Source: a bacterium
GTDB lineage: Bacteria; Oederibacteriota; JAAXVQ01; JAUVAV01
Assembly (NCBI GenBank): GCA_021108215.1
Contig: JAIORK010000018.1
Coordinates: 1 to 64,000 of the forward strand
DNA: 64,000 nt
Direction: 5' to 3'
Both the position numbers and the translations under genes were made by a program. Below, in pieces: positions 46,761-59,063 of this stretch; the stretch's first letter is position 1, and every line of letters begins with the position of its first letter. Below the pieces are notes generated by a model. It saw nothing but the letters and a program-made list of their open reading frames with translations. It searched no databases and was not told the origin of the DNA.

Positions 46761-46796
46761 GTAGATCATAAGTATCATTTTGAGCATACTTTGTCC

Positions 46797-47012
46797 ATGA
46801 AAAAAGATCAGATATCCATCAAGTTCGGTGAGAAAGTCCGCAAAGTACGGATCAAGAAAGGTCTGTCTCAAGAGAAATTGGCCGAGCTGGCTGATTTACA
46901 TCGAAATTACATCGGTATGATAGAGCGTGCAGAGAGAAATGTTACATTGATGAATGCTGCGAAAATTGCGAAAGCACTAAAACTCCGGGTTCGCGATTTA
47001 ATCGACAAGTGA
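46797..47012 (+). CDS. XRE-family regulator 1
   Basis: 71 residues, a single helix-turn-helix (KFGEKVRKVRIKKGLSQEKLAELADLHRNYIGMIERAERNVTLMNAAKIAKAL), like phage or restriction-modification controller proteins. No Shine-Dalgarno sequence precedes the ATG at 46797, which may mean a leaderless or poorly translated message. It is closely related to the next gene (about half the residues identical); the two starts lie 230 bases apart with a 14-base gap. Probably an autoregulator acting on the repeats upstream. Confidence 0.75.
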   Translation: MKKDQISIKFGEKVRKVRIKKGLSQEKLAELADLHRNYIGMIERAERNVTLMNAAKIAKALKLRVRDLIDK

Positions 47013-47026
47013 TTTCTACTTTATCC

Positions 47027-47242
47027 ATGAAAAAAGCACCCATCCTCAAAAAATTTGGGGCAAAGCTACGCAAAGAACGCCTCAAACGCGGCTTGTCCCA
47101 GGAAAAACTCGCCGAACTGGCGGATGTTCACAGGACGTATGTTGGCATGCTCGAAAGAGCGGAGAAAAATATTACGTTGAAGAATATCGAAAAAATCGCC
47201 AAGGCGTTGAAGATGAGCCTATCGCAGTTGGTGAAGCTGTGA
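47027..47242 (+). CDS. XRE-family regulator 2 (tandem copy)
   Basis: 71 residues, start MKKAPILKKFGAKLRKERLK, with SQEKLAELADVHRTYVGMLERAEKNITLKNIEKIAKALKM. It is a diverged tandem duplicate of the preceding gene. The ATG at 47027 also lacks a Shine-Dalgarno sequence. The pair is convergent with the deaminase operon (47289-48876), which it might control, though no sites were found there. Confidence 0.75.
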   Translation: MKKAPILKKFGAKLRKERLKRGLSQEKLAELADVHRTYVGMLERAEKNITLKNIEKIAKALKMSLSQLVKL

Positions 47243-47288: not shown

Positions 47289-47465
47289 TTAGCTCTTACT
47301 TTGCGTTACTTTCCCACTTTTTTTATTAATAAACTCACCTGAACTTGCTGTAGTTGATGTAATCTTTATAGATTGCTTCCATTCTGGCCATTTTTGTACG
47401 GTTGTACTATTCGCAGCAGCTACCTTCCAAAACGCTTTATAAGAAACATTTTCTTTTTTATCCAT
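47289..47465 (-). CDS. small protein overlapping the anti-phage deaminase gene, 58 aa
   Basis: Below the usual size cut-off but well supported. It starts at ATG 47465, eight bases before the end of the deaminase gene (shared ATGGATAA), with the strong ribosome-binding site AAGGGAGGG seven bases upstream. The product begins MDKKENVSYKAFWKVAAANS and continues TTVQKWPEWKQSIKI before a Ser/Thr/Lys-rich tail. The A..S..VxxWPEWK core is reminiscent of short uncharacterised proteins I associate with defence-type operons, but this is memory, not a search. Translational coupling implies a role with the deaminase, as a regulator, inhibitor or subunit. Confidence 0.65.
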   Translation of the reverse strand: MDKKENVSYKAFWKVAAANSTTVQKWPEWKQSIKITSTTASSGEFINKKSGKVTQSKS

Positions 47466-48876
47466 TTCTAAGCCCTCCCTTTATTTCAGCACCAATAGAA
47501 ATTTCCTTTTCTAAATATGAAAAACCCAATAAAGGAAATCTAAAAATAGCGTCCCGCTCACACCAAGAAATTTTTCTATCAGTTTTTTTTCTTACAACAC
47601 TAATTCCGTTACTCATCTGCAAAGAAAATAAATCAATAAAACGTCGCGGTCCAACTCCAATAAACGGTTGAAAGACTACCTTTGTTGCCTTTTGTTTATA
47701 TTTAGTATCAAATGAGATAGCATCGCCATGCAACTCCAAAGCTTTACTTTTTGGATACGGCTCAATAAACACTACTCTTTTTATACCCGAAGCAACAATA
47801 TGTTTTGCACAGTTATGACAAGGAAAGGTTGTTGAATATAGTGTACCACCACAGGAGCTAACTCCTATTCTAGCACATGCTAATAGTGCTTCCATCTCTG
47901 CATGCACTGCTCTTCCATACTCAGTTATATCAAATAATCCTGTCTTTTTCAATTTTAGTTTCGCTTCTTCTGTTTTTGGCATGTTTAATTCTGTAAGTAT
48001 TTTGTCTGCTATTTTGTTTTGTTCTTCTTTATTAGAATCATATCCTAATTGATAATCTCTTTTGTCATTTTGATCATTTGCCCAATATAGTCCTCCGCCT
48101 TTTTTGGGCACATCATTACAGCCTGTAGATATTATTTCACCATTCCCAGAAGTAATTACCGCCCCCACTTGTCTTGAAAGATCACCCGACCTAAATGATG
48201 CCGAAAACGCAAGAAACATTGCAAACTCATCTTTCGTTGGAGTAAAATAGGGATATCCGAAAATTAGATCAAAAAATTTTTTAACATCTTCTTTCCAGTT
48301 TTTTTTATCGACATCAAAAAAAACATCTGATATATAAAAAGCATCACGAGTATGCTGTCCATAAGCATTCTTCTCTTCTTCATCTCTATTTATAAGTTTT
48401 CTTGCGTTTGCATTTGACATGTTTTTTTGGTGTACTAAATATTTTAGTCTTTCAGTTTGTGAACTCGAAAACCCCATAAGAAAAAAACCCTTACCATATA
48501 CCGTCCTCAGCAATTGAATTTCCTCGGGATGCTTGAGTGATTTAAAAATATAGACTTGGTTTTGTTTTGGCTGTGGAACTTTCCTGATTTCTTGAATCTT
48601 AATTATCGAATATCTTGCAAGAATATCAGCTTGTTTTGTTTGTTGACGAATTTCATTACCAGCAGTCATGCTTGTATTAATCCGAGTATATTCTGACGAT
48701 TTACTAATTTTAGGATTAAACTTCGGAATATTCTGAATAAGCTGGCTTAATTTAATTAAATGTGTTTTATATCCATATTTATTTAAGTAATCCTTGAGTA
48801 ATGTACATATATAATCCAAGTCCACTCCTACAGGTGCAACTAAGCCAAGAAATATTTCTGAATTATATTTTGTCAT
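47458..48876 (-). CDS. avcD: anti-phage dCTP deaminase (AvcD/DCD type)
   Basis: 472 residues. The N-terminal P-loop-kinase-like part has a degenerate nucleotide loop (GLVAPVGVDLD, about 11-21) and FLMGFSSSQTERLKYL. The C-terminal cytidine/deoxycytidylate deaminase domain contains GDLSRQVGAVI (about 231), the zinc and catalytic motif HAE (325-327) and PCHNCAKH (352-359). This two-domain layout is that of anti-phage DCD/AvcD proteins, which deplete dCTP during infection. In known avcID loci the enzyme is silenced by a small RNA, AvcI, encoded next to it. The gene is AT-rich against its neighbours, fitting horizontal transfer, and overlaps a 58-codon gene at its 3' end. Confidence 0.85.
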   Translation of the reverse strand: MTKYNSEIFLGLVAPVGVDLDYICTLLKDYLNKYGYKTHLIKLSQLIQNIPKFNPKISKSSEYTRINTSMTAGNEIRQQTKQADILARYSIIKIQEIRKVPQPKQNQVYIFKSLKHPEEIQLLRTVYGKGFFLMGFSSSQTERLKYLVHQKNMSNANARKLINRDEEEKNAYGQHTRDAFYISDVFFDVDKKNWKEDVKKFFDLIFGYPYFTPTKDEFAMFLAFSASFRSGDLSRQVGAVITSGNGEIISTGCNDVPKKGGGLYWANDQNDKRDYQLGYDSNKEEQNKIADKILTELNMPKTEEAKLKLKKTGLFDITEYGRAVHAEMEALLACARIGVSSCGGTLYSTTFPCHNCAKHIVASGIKRVVFIEPYPKSKALELHGDAISFDTKYKQKATKVVFQPFIGVGPRRFIDLFSLQMSNGISVVRKKTDRKISWCERDAIFRFPLLGFSYLEKEISIGAEIKGGLRNG

Positions 48877-49096: not shown

Positions 49097-50248
49097 CTAC
49101 ATATTTCCTGTTCGGTAATATTCCAACGCTTGTTTCCAGGGCAACACATCGATGTCTCCCGCTTTCTTCCTGCGACTATCTGATAATGACGCAACGACCA
49201 GCCTGACTTTTGGAAATTGTTTCTTGAATTGACGGACTGCGGACTGTTGGATCTCACTTTTACCTGATTTTAATTCAATCGCCAAAATGGGTCCCCTGCC
49301 GGATGAGACCATGATATCAATTTCCTGATCACGATTACGCCAAAATGAAAACTGGTGCTCCAATCCTGCATAGTTCCGTATTTTTATCAATTCATTGATA
49401 AACCACGTTTCATAAATAAAACCAAGTTCTGTTGGTGTTATTGGATCAGAAAGGCGGTTTTGAATCGCCCGTACAACGCCTGTATCAAAGAAATAAAACT
49501 TGGGTCGTGCTTTTTTTCTTTCACTGTGATTCCAGGGCCATAGGTAGAATCCAATTAATGTATCCTCAAGAATTTGAAAATACTCTTTGACTGTGCTCAT
49601 CGGTACGGAACACTCTCGGGATATATTTGCAAATTCTATCACCTGGCCATTGCTTTGTGCTGCAACTGAAAGAAACCGATTAAATGCTCCGGCATTTCGT
49701 GTGAGTGCTTCCGCCTGAATTTCTTCACGTATATAAGTCGTGATATAACTTTTTAAATGTTCTTTGACCAGCTTTGTTTTGTTTTCTATTAAGAATCCTG
49801 ATATTTTGGGCAATGTGCCAAAAGCAAGTGCCTGCTTTATATTAAAATGGCTTTTCATTTCACTGCTGGATAGTGGATGTAATTTCATGTCCAGTGCTCG
49901 CCCACCCAGTAAATTGGCACCACCGCGTTTTAATTTACGCGCACTTGATCCGGAGAGGATAAAGCAGTGACCTAGGCTATCAATTGCTTTTTGGACATAA
50001 TTTAATAGAACCGGCGCTTTCTGAATTTCATCAACAATGATTAATGAACCCTTTGGCAGAGCACTCAGTTCATTCCAGAAATCTTTTGGATTGGTTTTAT
50101 ACTGGAGTTCCAAGTCAGGATCAAGCAGATCAATATACGCATCTGCTTTCAACTTTTTCAATAAAGTTGTTTTGCCTGTCATGCGGGGCCCAAACAGAAA
50201 TAAAGAAGTTTCTATTTGATCAAGCTTCAATTCCCGGGAAAATAGCAT
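49097..50248 (-). CDS. AAA ATPase with DUF4143 nuclease-like C-terminal domain (1)
   Basis: 383 residues. Walker A FGPRMTGKTT (about 19-28), Walker B IIVDEIQKAP (about 70-79), arginine-finger region SSARKLKRGGANLLGGRA; then a winged-helix segment (ECSVPMSTVKEYFQILEDTLIGFYLWPW) and a C-terminal PD-(D/E)xK-like part (IDIMVSSGRGPILAIELKSGKS). The family (COG1373) is widespread in multiple copies, with unclear function. The ATG at 50248 follows AGAGG. Two tandem 28-bp dyads lie directly upstream, pointing to autoregulation as in toxin-antitoxin units. Confidence 0.85.
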   Translation of the reverse strand: MLFSRELKLDQIETSLFLFGPRMTGKTTLLKKLKADAYIDLLDPDLELQYKTNPKDFWNELSALPKGSLIIVDEIQKAPVLLNYVQKAIDSLGHCFILSGSSARKLKRGGANLLGGRALDMKLHPLSSSEMKSHFNIKQALAFGTLPKISGFLIENKTKLVKEHLKSYITTYIREEIQAEALTRNAGAFNRFLSVAAQSNGQVIEFANISRECSVPMSTVKEYFQILEDTLIGFYLWPWNHSERKKARPKFYFFDTGVVRAIQNRLSDPITPTELGFIYETWFINELIKIRNYAGLEHQFSFWRNRDQEIDIMVSSGRGPILAIELKSGKSEIQQSAVRQFKKQFPKVRLVVASLSDSRRKKAGDIDVLPWKQALEYYRTGNM

Positions 50249-50261
50249 TTTCAACCTCTTT

Positions 50262-50320
50262 CACAAATAACATCAAGTTGTTATTTGTGAATCAAATATA
50301 ACATATAGATGTTATTTGTG
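50262..50320 (-). promoter_or_regulatory. two tandem 28-bp dyads upstream of the first DUF4143 gene
   Basis: Proximal site 50262-50289: perfect dyad CACAAATAACA..TGTTATTTGTG with a six-base centre. Distal site 50293-50320: imperfect version of the same. The period is 31 bases, three helical turns. TTTACA..TTATAT with a 17-base spacer lies within the same stretch on the minus strand, so occupancy would block transcription. The matching pair for the second DUF4143 gene has a 32-base period. Confidence 0.7.
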
Positions 50321-50407
50321 TAAACGGTTTTTTTAATTGGTGCCGAGTTCAAATGTTCAAATAACGTCACCCGGCCTTCTATTGTCTTCCCAGGACACCC
50401 TGCTAGT

Positions 50408-51385
50408 TTATTCTATCCCCATACCTTTGGGTTCGGGCACCTCGCCCGTGCCGCTATCATGCTCTGTTTGATAATTGAGAAATAGCTCTAGCCTATTACG
50501 AACCGGCTCCCGGGTCGTTTGGTACAGTGTCAGCAGATGCCTGTCATGATCCCACTTTCTCAAATCCAAAATCATATCTTCCACCTGTGAGGATGACACA
50601 TGCTGCTTGATGTAATTGAGATTTTCAAAAGGTGCTGATTTATCCCCTTTTGAGTGGATTAATAAAATCGGTTTTTTAATCAGGGATAATTTGGCTTTAA
50701 CTTTTTTCATGCCTAGTTTCATGCTGTGTATCTGCTTCATAAAATGCTTTCCTTCAAAGCCGATTCTGTCTGCGCCATCACGATTCTCAGGCACAACCGC
50801 TTCCAGCTCATCCACGAACCATGATATAACTCTGGTAAGATACGCCCGCCAATCATGCAGTAACCCGATTTCAAACAGATTATTTAGAAATACCGGCGCA
50901 GCGATACAAACCAGCGCTTTTATCTTGTCATTGTCTGCATACGCACTTGCCAGATCCAATGTCAATAACCCTCCCAAAGACAAACCAATAACTGTAATTT
51001 CTTCGTATTGCGTCAATAATGTGGTTAATTCATCCTCGCTTTTTTTAAACCACTGTGTGTAATAAGAATTTTTAAACCTGTCTTCTGTTCCTCCGTGACC
51101 AGCCAGCAAGGGTACAAAGACATCAAATTCTTTGGAAAAATAATCAGCATAGGCGCGAAAATCATTGGGGGATGATCCAAAACTATGTAAAAAAAGAATC
51201 GCTTTACCATGATTGTTCTTGATTGCAATTGGACTTACTTTGGGGGACAACCATTCCTGAACCGGGGTCCCTTCATACCGCTGCGGTTCTTTATATAAAA
51301 AAGTTGTTTCATTGATCAGATAATTAAGCCCCAGGATCATCATCAAAGCGATCGCGACGAAACTGATTTTTCGCAAAATCACCAT
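50408..51385 (-). CDS. alpha/beta-hydrolase (carboxylesterase-like), membrane-anchored
   Basis: 325 residues. An N-terminal membrane segment or uncleaved signal (about 7-25) is followed by FLHSFGSSPNDF (oxyanion region), the nucleophile elbow GLSLGG (Ser about 134), PILLIHSKGDKSAP (acid) and WDHDRHLL (His). It is like bacterial monoglyceride lipase/carboxylesterase Est30-type enzymes that hydrolyse short esters at the membrane. The ATG follows GGAAGGAG. No metabolic context is available from neighbours. Confidence 0.85.
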   Translation of the reverse strand: MVILRKISFVAIALMMILGLNYLINETTFLYKEPQRYEGTPVQEWLSPKVSPIAIKNNHGKAILFLHSFGSSPNDFRAYADYFSKEFDVFVPLLAGHGGTEDRFKNSYYTQWFKKSEDELTTLLTQYEEITVIGLSLGGLLTLDLASAYADNDKIKALVCIAAPVFLNNLFEIGLLHDWRAYLTRVISWFVDELEAVVPENRDGADRIGFEGKHFMKQIHSMKLGMKKVKAKLSLIKKPILLIHSKGDKSAPFENLNYIKQHVSSSQVEDMILDLRKWDHDRHLLTLYQTTREPVRNRLELFLNYQTEHDSGTGEVPEPKGMGIE

Positions 51386-51442
51386 TTGCTCTCCTTCCGA
51401 ACTCTTTCTGTTCCAAAATCATTGGGCAAACATATCCTGACG

Positions 51443-51468
51443 ACGGGCAAACACATAGGTTTGCCCGT
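51443..51468. repeat. 26-bp palindromic repeat
   Basis: ACGGGCAAAC pairs with GTTTGCCCGT around a short centre. It lies between the hydrolase gene and the secreted beta-helix gene and is similar in shape to the other short palindromes in this window. Confidence 0.55.
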
Positions 51469-51495
51469 ACGATTGACAAATATATATATTTTCCC

Positions 51496-53322
51496 CTACC
51501 TGACAACTACCTTTAGAATTTCTCTCACCTCACCATCAATCATAATCTTAGCGATGTAGAGGCCCGGTGCGACATCGGCGCACTGCCAGATCACAACCTG
51601 CCCGTTCCCCGCCAAAAAATTTTCTTTCAAACTGGCAATCCGCTCTCCGGTGATGTTGTACAGATCAATCTGGATAGGTGCGGCTTTTTTGAGGTGCATC
51701 AGAAAGCGCACTTCATCTGTCGCCGGGTTGGGATAGGCCAGAGCATTTTTCCAGTTGAGATCCACATCCGCCAAAACATTTTCAATCATGGTGGGTGTCC
51801 GGGTCACTGTAATCGTGAAGGTTAGACTGATGGTCACCGTTGGGGTGATGGTTGATGTTGATGTCGCAGACGCAATGACGGTTTCAGTAGCACTCGGTGT
51901 TATGGTAGGCGTTGGTGTGATCGTAGAACTGGGTGTCATACTTGCAGTGATCGTGGATGTTGGTGTCCAGGTCAGGGTAGGTGTTGCTGTGGAAACATCT
52001 TCTGTTTCATCAGCACCAACATCCCAGCTGCCTGTGCGTGTCTGTCTATCCATATCATCACTAAAGGGCCAATTGGGATCACTACTGAGATCATCACCAT
52101 TATCCTTAGCCAGTGTATCAAATGGATTCAAGTGAAAGTCTAAATTACCGGGATCATTTTCTTCTACAAAATAAGCTCTGCCGGTTAGAGGATTAAGCCC
52201 CGGCGCATCGCCGGCTATATCTGAAACATTGCTGGTAGAACTTGCATCAAAAGATCCTGAATACCCATCTGTACAAAGTTGCGTAATATTATTTTTCGCT
52301 ATAACAATACCATTCATCTGTTCAACACCAACTTTACAGTCATAGATGGTGTTATTATAAATATAAACATTATAACCACTGTCATTGACAAGTATTCCGC
52401 CTCCTGATGTACTGTTGGTAACATTAAAAGCATATATAATATTATTCCAAATATAGCCATTGCCCGATATGTTGGCGTTAAATTCAATACCATAATAATC
52501 TCCCATTAAACCATTACCACTACCTTTGATAATACATTGGGTTGCTTTGAAATCACAGGCAACCACACTGGTATCAAAATATAGACCTACCCTGCCTGCT
52601 GCACCTGGATTATTCGAAAACAGTTGAAGACCTTCAACTTGAAAATATGCATCCCGCAAAGTAAGCGGTCTGCTACCGGTTACCTCAATGCGATAACCAC
52701 TTGTTGTCCATTTTCCCTGATGACGCTGGCTAACACCGACTTCACTGGGTAGATAGGGTGTATAAATCTTAATCCGATGTGATGCATCTGAGGTCCAACT
52801 CATCCAGGTCGTCGGTGAGGTATCCACGGCATCGTTATAACAAGCAACATAGAAATTTTCATCATTGCTCACCAAATTACGGTTACCAACATCAAAATTC
52901 ACCAACCCCGCATCAATGCCTGTATTCTCTGTGCCATTCCTTAATAAGGCAAGCGTGATATATGCGCGGAAAATCGACCAATCCTGCGTGGCACCGGCAT
53001 CACCGGGTATCGCGCCTGCGGCATCCCGCACAGTATATTCTGTATCCGAAGTCCTGCCGTGAATAAACACAATTGCATCCGGCGTGGTATCGCCGGTGGT
53101 ATCGTATTGGATGACATCTCCCACACCCACATTGTCCGGCACGGCCTGGTTAAAGGTTGCGGTACCCGAGCCAATCGATATGGTATTGCTGTCCGCTGTT
53201 CCGGTATCCAACGCGGTTGTATTGCCGGGACCGACGGAACGATAAATAGGTGCAGCGGACAGCAAGGCCGGATGGGCAAGTGCCAGCAAACAGAAAATTA
53301 TTTTTAGCTTGAACATTCTCAT
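51496..53322 (-). CDS. secreted beta-helix protein with C-terminal Por/FlgD-like domain
   Basis: 608 residues. Signal peptide (MRMFKLK.. to about ALLSAA), a beta-rich N-terminal section (residues 25-160), a beta-helix core with GNGLMGDYYGIEFNAN, IYAFNVTNS, YNVYIYNNTIYDC and NNITQ (about 230-350), the GADE terminal motif common in polysaccharide-degrading or binding helices (SWDVGADETED), a Thr-rich linker (about 450-520), and the YPNPATDEV..YNITGERIASL..WQCADVAPGLYIAKI domain. The ATG at 53322 follows AAAGGA. Surface adhesin or polysaccharide-binding function is inferred only. Confidence 0.8.
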   Translation of the reverse strand: MRMFKLKIIFCLLALAHPALLSAAPIYRSVGPGNTTALDTGTADSNTISIGSGTATFNQAVPDNVGVGDVIQYDTTGDTTPDAIVFIHGRTSDTEYTVRDAAGAIPGDAGATQDWSIFRAYITLALLRNGTENTGIDAGLVNFDVGNRNLVSNDENFYVACYNDAVDTSPTTWMSWTSDASHRIKIYTPYLPSEVGVSQRHQGKWTTSGYRIEVTGSRPLTLRDAYFQVEGLQLFSNNPGAAGRVGLYFDTSVVACDFKATQCIIKGSGNGLMGDYYGIEFNANISGNGYIWNNIIYAFNVTNSTSGGGILVNDSGYNVYIYNNTIYDCKVGVEQMNGIVIAKNNITQLCTDGYSGSFDASSTSNVSDIAGDAPGLNPLTGRAYFVEENDPGNLDFHLNPFDTLAKDNGDDLSSDPNWPFSDDMDRQTRTGSWDVGADETEDVSTATPTLTWTPTSTITASMTPSSTITPTPTITPSATETVIASATSTSTITPTVTISLTFTITVTRTPTMIENVLADVDLNWKNALAYPNPATDEVRFLMHLKKAAPIQIDLYNITGERIASLKENFLAGNGQVVIWQCADVAPGLYIAKIMIDGEVREILKVVVR

Positions 53323-53399
53323 GACAGATCCTTTCTCTTGCATTTGTAAATACGAAGGACATAGTTGACGAGAAAACGTCCACCGCTTCTTTGCCGAAT

Positions 53400-53795
53400 T
53401 TTCTCATAGGTATATGCAATTGATTATGCCGTCTGAACAGTGAATATTTCAAGTGGAAAAAGCGGCAAGGCTATTCCCCGCCGAGGCACCCTATTCCATA
53501 CTGTCCAAACAACGAAATCACAGGACCGCCAAAAAACACGGAAAATCCTTGGGAATATAGTCAAAGACATAAAAGCAAAGAATGCTACAAGCATAAAATG
53601 CGTCTCACCACAAAAACAGGCTTTGCGCCCCAAAAAGAGATGATGGTTATCTCTTTATCCCGCTCCGCAGAACACCCCGGGCTTGCCCGGGGATGAATGC
53701 GTCATAACGCTTCGCGGGATGTCGCCTGCCAAATTGGAGTACGACGCAAGGTCAAAAGGGGTGCCACGGGCTTGCCCGTGGGGCTCCATGTTGTC
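53400..53795. repeat. intergenic repeats and hairpins
   Basis: A degraded CACGGAG-type element (CACAGGACCGCC..AAACACGG at about 53518-53548, and CTCACCACA near 53604-53613) is followed by two hairpins, CCCCGGGCTTGCCCGGGG (53675-53692) and CCACGGGCTTGCCCGTGG (53764-53781). No gene is seen in this 450-bp gap, and the open frames in it are built from repeats. Confidence 0.5.
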
Positions 53796-53858
53796 TGACT
53801 ATTTTGCAGTGTACTTTAAAAAAGTCTTGACTAATTTTCAGTTTAATTTAAAATAGTC
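53796..53858 (+). promoter_or_regulatory. promoter and two tandem dyads upstream of the second DUF4143 gene
   Basis: Two related 31-bp units, 53796-53826 and 53828-53858, repeat with a 32-base period. Each starts TGACTA and ends A(A)AGTC or ATAGTC, so each has a dyad GACTA(A)TTTT..AAAATAGTC. The second unit contains TTGACT (53827-53832), a 16-base spacer and TAAAAT (53849-53854). Transcription would then begin about at the ATG (53861), which has no Shine-Dalgarno sequence, so the message is probably leaderless. Confidence 0.65.
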
Positions 53859-53860
53859 AC

Positions 53861-54985
53861 ATGAAACGGCGACTGGAAAAAGCCATCCTCAAAGATCTCA
53901 AATCAAAAATTGTCCTGCTCTCCGGACCGCGGCAGGTGGGCAAAACCACACTAAGCCGCCAGCTTGGTGTGAAATACGATTATCTCAATTTTGATGCCGC
54001 TCCGGACAGAAAAATCATTATGCATCAGGAGTGGGATCGTCACGCACCCATTATTATTCTGGATGAAATCCATAAAATGAAAAAATGGAAGTCATGGATC
54101 AAGGGCGTGTATGATACGGAAGGAATTCCTCCGGGACTGCTCTTGACCGGCTCTGCCCGAATGGATGTCTATCGAAAAGGCGGCGACTCTTTGGCGGGCA
54201 GACATTTTAACTACCGGCTGCTCCCTGTCTCCATAAAAGAGGCCGCTGTATTTATGCCTGCCGAGGAAGCGTTGGAACGCATTATGCAAGTCGGCGGATT
54301 TCCTGAGCCGTTTTTAAAAGGCGAGCGTACTTTTTATAAACGCTGGCGTAAGCAGCATCTGGATGTCATCTTGCGGGAAGATTTGATTGATCTGGAAAAA
54401 GTGAGAGACATCAAAAGCATTGAACTCATGGTGGATATGTTAAGGGAACGGGTCGGCGCGCCTGTCTCGTATTCATCATTGGCCACGAATCTTCAGGTAT
54501 CCGTGAATACGGTCAAGCATTGGCTTCAAATATTAAAAAATCTTTATGTTATTTTTCCGGTTCGCCCCTATCACAAAAATATTGCCAGAAGTATTTTAAA
54601 AAATTCCAAATACTATTTTTATGATACGGGTGCCGTCATGGGGGGTGACGGGGCCAAACTGGAAAATGCCGTGGCCTGCTCCTTGCTGAGTGAGCTTTAT
54701 TATCATGAAGAGACAACCGGCGAGCGGACATCGTTGTGCTATCTGCGTGACAAGGAAAAAAGGGAGGTTGATTTTCTCGTCACTGTAGAAAGAAAACCCC
54801 GGCAGATGATTGAAGTAAAGTGGGCTGATGACACTTTTTCAAAAAATCTGCTGCATTTTAAACGGAATTTTCATCAGATCGAATGTCTGCAGCTCGTTGG
54901 GAAAACAACCAGACGTAAAACAAGGACACATGATATTATTTTGCAACCAGCCGGCGAGTATCTAAAAAACATAACAATTAAATAA
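53861..54985 (+). CDS. AAA ATPase with DUF4143 nuclease-like C-terminal domain (2)
   Basis: 374 residues. Walker A SGPRQVGKTT (about 21-30), Walker B IIILDEIHKM (about 65-74), TGSARMDVYRKGGDSLAGRHFNY, a winged-helix segment (NLQVSVNTVKHWLQILKNLYVIF) and a C-terminal ERxEVDFLVT..PRQMIEVKW stretch, PD-(D/E)xK-like. Same family as the gene at 49097 but only distantly similar to it. Initiation is probably leaderless. The tandem dyads directly upstream imply autoregulation. Confidence 0.85.
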   Translation: MKRRLEKAILKDLKSKIVLLSGPRQVGKTTLSRQLGVKYDYLNFDAAPDRKIIMHQEWDRHAPIIILDEIHKMKKWKSWIKGVYDTEGIPPGLLLTGSARMDVYRKGGDSLAGRHFNYRLLPVSIKEAAVFMPAEEALERIMQVGGFPEPFLKGERTFYKRWRKQHLDVILREDLIDLEKVRDIKSIELMVDMLRERVGAPVSYSSLATNLQVSVNTVKHWLQILKNLYVIFPVRPYHKNIARSILKNSKYYFYDTGAVMGGDGAKLENAVACSLLSELYYHEETTGERTSLCYLRDKEKREVDFLVTVERKPRQMIEVKWADDTFSKNLLHFKRNFHQIECLQLVGKTTRRKTRTHDIILQPAGEYLKNITIK

Positions 54986-57125: not shown

Positions 57126-58991
57126 TCATTTCACAATCGCTATCTTGAGTTTCTGGACTTCCCTGCCATCCATAAACACACGCGCCAAATACACGCCCGG
57201 TGCCGCGTCTGCACAGTCCCAGGTCAAGGTCCGGCCCCGGCCTGCCGGATAGTGTTCACGCAAGGATACCACCCGCTCACCAATTAAATTGTACACATGA
57301 ATCTCCACTTGCGTCTCCTGGGATAAGTGGAAGAGAAACAAAACCTGCTCCTTGGCCGGACTGGGATAGGCCAGCACAGTCTTGCCGCCCAGATCTATGT
57401 TCAACAGTGGATTATCCGGCGTCATGGTTATGGTCGATGTTTGGGTCACCGTGGAAGTAGTCGTCACCGTGAAAGTGGTCGTCACCGAAGGGGTGCTTGT
57501 CACGACCGGCGTACTGGTATACGTGACGCTAATCGTAGGCGTGTGTGTCACTGTGGCTGAAGGTGTCAATGTCGGCGTCTGTGTCGGTGTTACGGTAAAA
57601 CTCGGTGTCATGGTGGGTGTCTGCGTCTGCGTGGCTGTAAAGCTCGGTGTCACCGTGGAAGTGGGCGTGGGCGGCTCCACCAACACGTTGATTGCAAACT
57701 CCGAGCTGTTGTTATCTGGGTCTGTGGAAATAGCGGTAATCACTTCCCCGCCCACCAAGCCCGAGGGCGTGAAACTCCAGGTGCCACTGCTCGCTGTGGC
57801 TGAACCGACATAGGACAAAGCGCCGCCTTGTTCGCCTACTCCCCGGTCGGAAATAAAAACCTCAATCGTGTCCAGAGTCAAATCCGTACCCTGAATCAGC
57901 CCGGGATTGGCTGAGGTAATCACCGGCGGGACTTGGCCGTCATTGGCCGTGGGCATGACCATAATCACTTCCGCGCCCGGGCCCGTGGCGGTCAGGGTAT
58001 TGCCGTAGATGGCATTGTTGGCTGCTGTGTCGGAAATAGCAATATAAGCGCCATAAATAAAATTACCTGCAATACCCGAACTGCCTGACGTGCCTATAAA
58101 ATTTCCGTTTGCTCCGTCCTCCACTAAAATGTCAATACCGAAATTGTTAGCCGGGGTTCCGTCCGCGTACAAGTTCATCCACACTGCATTAATGGAATTG
58201 CCGAAAGAATCAGCGCCTTCGATGCTGATGCCCCTAGTAGTGCCACAAATGAGATTTCGCGACCGAGGCCATGAACTCCCGCCGATCCTGGCCTGTACAC
58301 TTCCATTTGACAGCCTAATCCCGGAGGTGCTCACCATCGTCGTATCACCGGCGCTGTTCAGGCCGATAATATTGCTCTGTATCCTCAATTGGTAGGTGTA
58401 GATGGCGTAAATCGCCAAACCGTTTCCACTGATGACGCAGCCTTCACCGTCTGATCCGAAACGATAGCCAATCCCTGCATAGCTGACCGGAGTCCCGGCG
58501 CTTCCATATACACCGATGCCTCTGGAAAAACCCACACCGGTTGTATCATCCCAATCGGTGCCAATGCGGCACTTGATTACTCTCACCGAATAGCCATTAA
58601 TTTCAATTCCCGCACCTCCCATGGTCGGGGAGGTGCGGATAAACGCGAGATTTTGGACCACCACCGTACCGCCGTTTATAATCAAGGCCGTAAAGCTGGC
58701 GCCGTTCGTGTCGATGACGACTTTATCAGTATCTGTCGACTCGCCTAAAAATAAATTACTCCCGGTCACGACCAAGCTGCTTGAAATGGTAATGGCAGTG
58801 TAAGTATTACCGAGGTTGAAAGTGATATTGTCCGATCCCGGCGCATCAGCATCCAGGATGGCCTGGCGCAAAGAACCCGCCCCGCTGTCATTGGTATTCG
58901 TCACCGTGTAATAGAGCGCCCAGCCGGATAATGCCGTTGTTCCTATCAAAAACATCACGCTAAGTCCTATTTGTAACATACGCTTCACCAT
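57126..58991 (-). CDS. secreted beta-helix protein with C-terminal Por/FlgD-like domain
   Basis: 621 residues. Signal peptide (MVKRMLQIGLSVMFLIGTTAL, cleaved near GWA), a CSLREA-like start (DSGAGSLRQAILDAD), beta-helix rungs with GTSGSSGIAGNFI and GNTLTATGPG, an Ig-like domain (ITAISTDPDNNSSEF), a Thr-rich linker (TPTMTPS..), and the AYPSPAKEQVLFLFHL, VYNLIGERVVSL, WDCADAAPGVYLARV domain. Same architecture as the genes at 452 and 3331 but diverged. ATG at 58991 with GGAAGG upstream. The lipoprotein gene at 59064 lies 72 bases upstream. Confidence 0.85.
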   Translation of the reverse strand: MVKRMLQIGLSVMFLIGTTALSGWALYYTVTNTNDSGAGSLRQAILDADAPGSDNITFNLGNTYTAITISSSLVVTGSNLFLGESTDTDKVVIDTNGASFTALIINGGTVVVQNLAFIRTSPTMGGAGIEINGYSVRVIKCRIGTDWDDTTGVGFSRGIGVYGSAGTPVSYAGIGYRFGSDGEGCVISGNGLAIYAIYTYQLRIQSNIIGLNSAGDTTMVSTSGIRLSNGSVQARIGGSSWPRSRNLICGTTRGISIEGADSFGNSINAVWMNLYADGTPANNFGIDILVEDGANGNFIGTSGSSGIAGNFIYGAYIAISDTAANNAIYGNTLTATGPGAEVIMVMPTANDGQVPPVITSANPGLIQGTDLTLDTIEVFISDRGVGEQGGALSYVGSATASSGTWSFTPSGLVGGEVITAISTDPDNNSSEFAINVLVEPPTPTSTVTPSFTATQTQTPTMTPSFTVTPTQTPTLTPSATVTHTPTISVTYTSTPVVTSTPSVTTTFTVTTTSTVTQTSTITMTPDNPLLNIDLGGKTVLAYPSPAKEQVLFLFHLSQETQVEIHVYNLIGERVVSLREHYPAGRGRTLTWDCADAAPGVYLARVFMDGREVQKLKIAIVK

Positions 58992-59063
58992 GATTATTCC
59001 TTCCGGATTCCATTTTTCTTCAACCAACCGGCCTTGCCTTTTCCAAAAAAATGCCGACCGCAC

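Follow-up and report, generated by a model that had tools for sequence, protein, structure and literature searches.

Palindromic operators at the promoters of DUF4143/AAA_14 ATPase genes are probably read by the proteins that these genes encode

In a 64,000-nucleotide stretch of a bacterial genome from the phylum Oederibacteriota (GenBank assembly GCA_021108215.1, contig JAIORK010000018.1, positions 1 to 64,000; hereafter the window), two genes for ATPases of the DUF4143 family are each preceded by a pair of inverted repeats (dyads) in tandem. Why do two proteins which are only 23% identical, and had rightly been described as only distantly alike, share such an arrangement, and which protein reads it? 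The initial annotation, made from the window alone, proposed that each ATPase recognises its own promoter through a winged helix. Our comparison of homologues from many phyla makes it very likely, as judged from sequence conservation and covariation, that DUF4143/AAA_14 proteins are DNA-binding ATPases which dock on a palindrome at their own promoter, using the winged helix together with a loop of the nuclease domain.

Both genes encode an AAA_14 ATPase with a winged helix and a PD-(D/E)XK domain: gene 1 lies on the minus strand (49100–50248, 383 aa, with a possible earlier TTG start at 50254) and gene 2 on the plus strand (53861–54985, 374 aa). Their Pfam matches are well above the curated cut-offs, both for AAA_14 (73.2 bits, E 2.6e-20, and 85.9 bits, E 3e-24, for genes 1 and 2, respectively; cut-off 27 bits) and for DUF4143 (100 bits, E 1.5e-28, and 102 bits, E 3.7e-29; cut-off 28.1 bits), and both proteins match the PADLOC family PDC-S01 (E 8.7e-51 and 9.6e-51). 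The Walker A and B residues G25, G30, K31, D71 and E72 are invariant among 20 divergent members, as are E305, D307, E321 and K323 of the PD-(D/E)XK-like E-x-D...E-x-K motif.

Tandem dyads with a period of 31 or 32 bases are indeed present immediately upstream of each gene, as initially annotated, and none of 1,000 dinucleotide shuffles reached the tandem-dyad statistic of either array (26.1 for gene 1 and 20.6 for gene 2, compared with shuffled means of 6.8 and 5.0). The promoter-proximal convergent dyad of gene 1 (CACAAATAACATCAAGTTGTTATTTGTG, that is, CACAAATAACA-N6-TGTTATTTGTG; 50262–50289, minus strand) recurs with a period of 31 as a distal convergent dyad 31 bases further upstream (CAAATATAACATATAGATGTTATTTGTG; 50293–50320, minus strand), which overlaps the presumed −35 box TTTACA (50319–50324) and −10 box TTATAT (50296–50301), both read from the sequence and separated by a 17-base spacer. 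This array can also be read as four half-sites, with an inner divergent pair between the two convergent dyads (TGTTATATTTGATTCACAAATAACA; 50279–50303, minus strand). Gene 1 and its four closest orthologues (57–68% identical to gene 1) have all retained this divergent pair, TGTTAT-N12/13-ATAACA, while the flanking convergent pairs, which give the locus its tandem look, are found in three of these five genes; the conserved unit can thus be the inner dyad between the repeats. Upstream of gene 2, a distal (TGACTATTTTGCAGTGTACTTTAAAAAAGTC; 53796–53826, plus strand) and a proximal convergent dyad (TGACTAATTTTCAGTTTAATTTAAAATAGTC; 53828–53858, plus strand) are 84% identical and repeat with a period of 32, the proximal one reaching from the −35 box to the presumed transcription start. 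Between their centres, a divergent dyad (AAAAAAGTC-TT-GACTAATTTT, with the core AGTC-TT-GACT; 53818–53838, plus strand) lies over the presumed −35 box TTGACT (53827–53832), which is followed after a 16-base spacer by a presumed −10 box TAAAAT (53849–53854), both again read from the sequence, and by a leaderless ATG at 53861. The central AGTC-TT-GACT occurs in seven genes of the clade of gene 2, six of which keep the outer half-sites in register, so that in this clade the four-half-site array is itself conserved.

Across the family, dyads turned out to be the rule, whereas the tandem plan of the initial annotation holds only for particular clades. In a sample of 116 genes, taken from the phylum and from other relatives, the best dyad within the region 210 to 30 bases before Walker A scored at least 9 in 56% of cases, compared with 0.9% of control windows placed within the gene or farther upstream. 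With the limit on the arms slightly widened, the same score was reached by 57% of these genes, by 56% of 54 genes homologous to those of the two window proteins and by 65% of 77 genes from one clade spanning about 20 named phyla, but by only 11% of other genes, represented by 680 upstream regions from the window and from the flanks of fetched loci. An absence of dyads upstream of most homologues, which the initial annotation had named as speaking against its proposal, was therefore not what we observed. Scores of at least 15 were found in 11–23% of the three homologue samples versus 0.7% of other genes. Furthermore, the genome of the window contains 13 DUF4143 matches, 12 of them full genes, and in ten of these 12 paralogues a dyad can be recognised that overlaps or adjoins the promoter, with a sequence that differs from gene to gene. 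In most members there is a single dyad of about 20–49 bp, and tandem arrays appear in some clades. A universal tandem period of 31–32 bases was rejected, since most clades have a single dyad and other periods occur as well (about 22 in L078–L081 and 30 in L008). The type of operator follows the clade of the DUF4143 protein. Moreover, the dyads of L054, L060 and other members of about 355 aa, from several clades, include the −35 hexamer TTGACA itself, indicating that promoter and operator have evolved there as one sequence.

The canonical clade, which comprises L183–L262 and eight relatives, allowed us to place the dyad relative to the promoter and to follow its individual bases (dN denotes operator base N counted from the dyad centre). 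The centre is most often found 38–40 bases upstream of the start codon, and −10-like hexamers follow at +26/+27, so that the dyad spans the −35 box and spacer of a mostly leaderless promoter. The two arms are complementary from d1 to d19, well above what column composition would give. Although the centre was set from bases 1–13 only, the unused bases 14–19 are still complementary (z 4–10); at d16, 81% of the pairs are complementary compared with 30% after shuffling, while the base itself is hardly conserved. Complementarity beyond composition means that the two half-sites change together.

If the encoded protein reads the site, its residues should vary along with the operator bases. In a discovery set of 78 canonical proteins (residue numbering of L014; counts at symmetric positions only), the strongest associations of variable bases included d5 with residue 217, d6 with 219, d7 with 218 and d14 with 311. 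His218 goes with G7 in 29 of 31 proteins and Asp217 with G5 in nine of nine, and at d6 Lys219 is paired with G (9/10), Pro219 with A (10/10) and Asn219 with T (7/8). Further out, Asn311 is accompanied by A14 in 15/15 proteins, Lys311 by A14 and by G15 (8/8 each), and residue 312 goes along with d16 (His312 with G, 10/12; Asn312 with A, 7/9; Val312 with T, 4/4). These contingency tables read like a recognition code, which would be shared between two domains: based on a 20-member alignment and the secondary structure of a model of the gene 2 protein, residues 217–219 form the start of the recognition helix of the winged helix, and residues 311–312 lie in the loop of a beta-hairpin that immediately precedes the catalytic E-x-D of the PD-(D/E)XK fold. 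Bases 5–7 and 14–16 are about one helical turn apart.

The associations carried over to a further 49 genes that have a symmetric operator and whose products are 36–85% identical to the nearest training protein. All six residue–base rules beat permuted labels in these held-out homologues (P 0.042 to <0.0005), with correct calls, compared with permuted means, of 18/30 versus 16.5 for d5 (P 0.042), 26/42 versus 14.2 for d6, 23/36 versus 14.6 for d7 (P 0.002), 18/27 versus 12.1 for d14 (P 0.007), 23/33 versus 14.3 for d15 and 23/35 versus 8.6 for d16 from residue 312. Relatedness was controlled for by a Mantel-Haenszel test in which pairs of 101 proteins were grouped into strata of overall identity. 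Here, the best partners were residue 218 for d7 (odds ratio 12.1; next 2.7), 219 for d6 (5.2; next 2.1), 311 for d14 (5.7; next 2.3) and d15 (4.2; next 3.4), 312 for d16 (5.0; next 2.4) and 208 for d8 (22.8). Covariation of the recognition helix in the discovery, held-out and stratified sets thus supports the initial suggestion that the winged helix is the binder. In addition, DNA reading seems to involve the nuclease domain as well, whose residues 311–312 covary with bases 14–16, a feature which had been missed: the winged-helix domain (217–219 and 208) would read bases 5–8 and the nuclease loop bases 14–16.

Several observations weigh against this interpretation. The held-out rules are accurate in 60–70% of cases, and the d5–217 rule is weak, barely exceeding the majority base, although the other five rules hold clearly. 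In the stratified test, d5 ranks residue 116 just above 217, d4 ranks 362 just above 223, and residue 378 stands alone at d3; as the structure offers no evident reason for these partners, some of the signal probably reflects noise or residual relatedness. Moreover, about 40% of the homologues, among them most of a clade around L063–L077, have no strong single dyad under our scoring. Simultaneous contact by both domains and the dimer stoichiometry are deduced from symmetry and spacing, and we came across no data on the binding or expression of these proteins.

The mechanism that we propose assigns to each protein a dedicated site on its own promoter, either a palindrome about 39 bp long or several of its half-sites in an array. 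Two protomers would bind symmetrically, a dimer being suggested by symmetry and spacing, with the recognition helix of each winged helix on bases about 4–9 from the centre and the beta-hairpin loop leading into the catalytic strand of the nuclease domain on bases 14–16, one helical turn further out. Binding there should repress the gene, since the −35 box and the spacer of the promoter, which is mostly leaderless, both lie within the site, and the DUF4143 protein would probably act as its own repressor. The ATPase, with a predicted fold like those of STAND/NLR proteins and archaeal Orc initiators, presumably switches between a DNA-docked and an active state. In genes 1 and 2, extra half-sites flanking the core produce the tandem appearance and probably make cooperative binding possible. 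Direct binding as a dimer, repression, cooperativity between half-sites, control by the nucleotide and a role in defence are what we infer from these patterns. One could go further and suppose that docking on the operator holds a STAND-like ATPase-nuclease inactive, and that loss or modification of the operator, or competition for it, would derepress the gene and free the nuclease. We regard this extension as rather unlikely; if true, it would make PDC-S01 a one-gene alarm which senses the integrity of its own promoter, for example during takeover by a phage.

The operators that we searched in the genome are private sites. The gene 1 operator, allowing up to three mismatches, occurs twice in the 3.56-Mb genome of the window, at the two sites of gene 1, and a third paralogue, on contig 16, has an operator with a single occurrence, at its own gene. 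A wider regulon was rejected, as the two operators searched were found in this genome only at their own genes. Moreover, residues 217–219 are different in each of the twelve full paralogues, and unique operators together with differing reader residues are what orthogonal autoregulators need. Site and reader would have changed together within clades, so that paralogues in one genome could stay orthogonal. The small genomes G175, G087 and G200 (2.2–2.6 Mb), with 33–52 first-look DUF4143 gene candidates each, are good material for studying such orthogonality.

Could the dyad instead be a recognition or cleavage site of the PD-(D/E)XK domain, serving homing, mobility or self-restriction, with its overlap of the promoter being secondary? 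The invariance of the catalytic motif among the 20 divergent members, the loop beside the active site which appears to read bases 14–16, and the patchy distribution of the genes, with about 50 candidate copies in one genome, would all fit. However, in many phyla the gene is preceded by an intact site whose spacing from the start codon is mostly fixed, a nuclease cutting there unchecked would sever its own chromosome, and for the two operators searched there is no second copy elsewhere in the genome of the window; we therefore consider this explanation improbable. Another regulator might own the dyads, the DUF4143 protein itself not binding them. Two similar Xre-type HTH_3 genes (73 and 77 aa) lie in tandem at 46791–47242 on the plus strand, the first of which scores against models of restriction controller proteins; no restriction enzyme adjoining this pair was noticed. 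Dyads over promoters are common for Xre-type and controller regulators, but operator bases covary with the recognition helix and nuclease loop of DUF4143 itself across about 20 phyla, and the operator type tracks the clade of this protein, which leaves the other-regulator explanation with very little probability.

Long, near-perfect inverted repeats with covarying arms are also typical of RNA stems, and the dyads might thus form an attenuator, riboswitch or terminator hairpin. If the arms paired as RNA, G.T mismatches should outnumber A.C mismatches on the coding strand, yet both were equally frequent (95 versus 74 in all genes, P 0.12; 24 versus 30 in the canonical clade, P 0.50), leaving no RNA signature and indicating that the site is read as DNA. 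Since, moreover, the dyad lies over the −35 box, upstream of the expected transcript, its bases covary with protein residues and an Rfam search of the region gave no match, we rejected an RNA hairpin, which has hardly any chance of being correct. Chance dyads in AT-rich promoters, or ordinary terminators, find some support in the 11% of other genes which also reach score 9 in the promoter window, but in view of the shuffling result for the two arrays, the about fivefold enrichment over other genes and the covariation of arms and residues, they were rejected at the family level and are extremely improbable.

Neither of the two genes has an evident small partner gene in its surroundings. Gene 1 lies between genes for a dCTP deaminase and an alpha/beta hydrolase, and gene 2 is flanked by a gene for a secreted protein, on the opposite strand, and by a gene for an ABC-type ATPase. 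The directly adjoining deaminase (47458–48876, minus strand) is of the anti-phage type (NCBIfam NF041025, 486.6 bits with a cut-off of 400; PADLOC dCTPase, E 2.1e-169), and the region may therefore be a small defence island. Two GC-rich inverted repeats upstream of gene 2, CCCCGGGCTTGCCCGGGG (53675–53692) and CCACGGGCTTGCCCGTGG (53764–53781), are 89% alike and 89 bases apart and possibly represent a dispersed repeat. Two large secreted proteins encoded on the minus strand (51496–53343 and 57126–59063) have Thr/Pro-rich linkers (TPTxTPT) and similar C-terminal ends, the former matching the Por_Secre_tail sorting domain.

COG1373/DUF4143 (PF13635 with AAA_14), arCOG03166 and PDC-S01 describe the same proteins, with an AAA_14 ATPase, a winged helix and a PD-(D/E)XK domain; for arCOG03166 this is our reading of the architecture, as it was annotated as an AAA+ ATPase fused to HTH and RecB nuclease domains with a likely role in defence (PMC4158269). 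PDC-S01 is a defence candidate by gene context, and is reported to rank fourth in frequency among defences across all prokaryotes; most PDCs await validation (PMC12988326). The open literature that we searched describes no operator, binding site or recognition code for COG1373, DUF4143, arCOG03166 or PDC-S01, and we found there no biochemical work on PDC-S01. Viral contigs contained only 13 relatives of the canonical clade. In Thermus thermophilus HB27, the megaplasmid DUF4143 gene TT_P0211 was reported as upregulated 6.6-fold in the presence of a plasmid and with Argonaute intact (PMC4406477), which shows that a DUF4143 gene is inducible and does not indicate the mechanism. A DUF4143 gene on this megaplasmid, possibly TT_P0211, has a 23-bp dyad just upstream of the −35 box and a 17-bp dyad over the −10 box. 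With tens of thousands of copies of PDC-S01, and up to about 50 candidate loci in some genomes, a likely DNA target can now be named for each dyad-bearing member, together with predictions of which residues read given bases, and the operator letters are partly predictable from a few amino acids of the protein. The operators offer a route to annotate these genes and to study orthogonality among paralogues, a part of the nuclease domain in DNA reading is suggested, and the biology of PDC-S01 becomes approachable at a named DNA target.

How do these proteins compare with known systems? No relative with a solved structure was found by sequence in the PDB at E 0.1. In an AlphaFold2 model of the gene 2 protein (mean pLDDT 89), the predicted ATPase and winged-helix part resembles the archaeal proteins PABY2304 and SSO1545 (Z 14.4 to 2qen and 14.2 to 2fna) as well as plant NLRs, CED-4 and the apoptosome (Z 10–12) and Avs5 (about 10), and the Orc-type initiators 2qby and 1w5t are also among the structural matches of the model. 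Archaeal Orc1/Cdc6 initiators are likewise AAA+ ATPases with a DNA-binding winged helix, whereas the DUF4143 genes show no sign of an origin, their site is their own promoter and a nuclease domain is present. A possible kinship with STAND/NLR ATPases such as Apaf-1, CED-4, RPP1 and Avs5 is suggested by the predicted fold (Z 10–14, including the archaeal matches); in contrast to these, DUF4143 proteins lack sensor repeats, carry a PD-(D/E)XK domain after the winged helix, and would use the winged helix as a DNA reader. With toxin-antitoxin modules and restriction controller proteins they share dyad operators on their own promoters, sometimes in tandem, a small dedicated site and many paralogues per genome, and autoregulation through a dyad is of a known kind. 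Genes 1 and 2 have the palindromic operator over their own promoter that is typical of toxin-antitoxin systems, but they do not form two-gene operons of toxin and antitoxin. What appears to be new is a single-chain ATPase-nuclease reading its own operator with a STAND-like winged helix and a nuclease domain; we found no such protein in the open literature, and as few subscription papers were covered, an earlier report is possible. Unlike in toxin-antitoxin and controller systems, a single gene here would encode one chain that combines the DNA reader with the putative effector (ATPase and nuclease), and the nuclease domain seems to join in reading the site.

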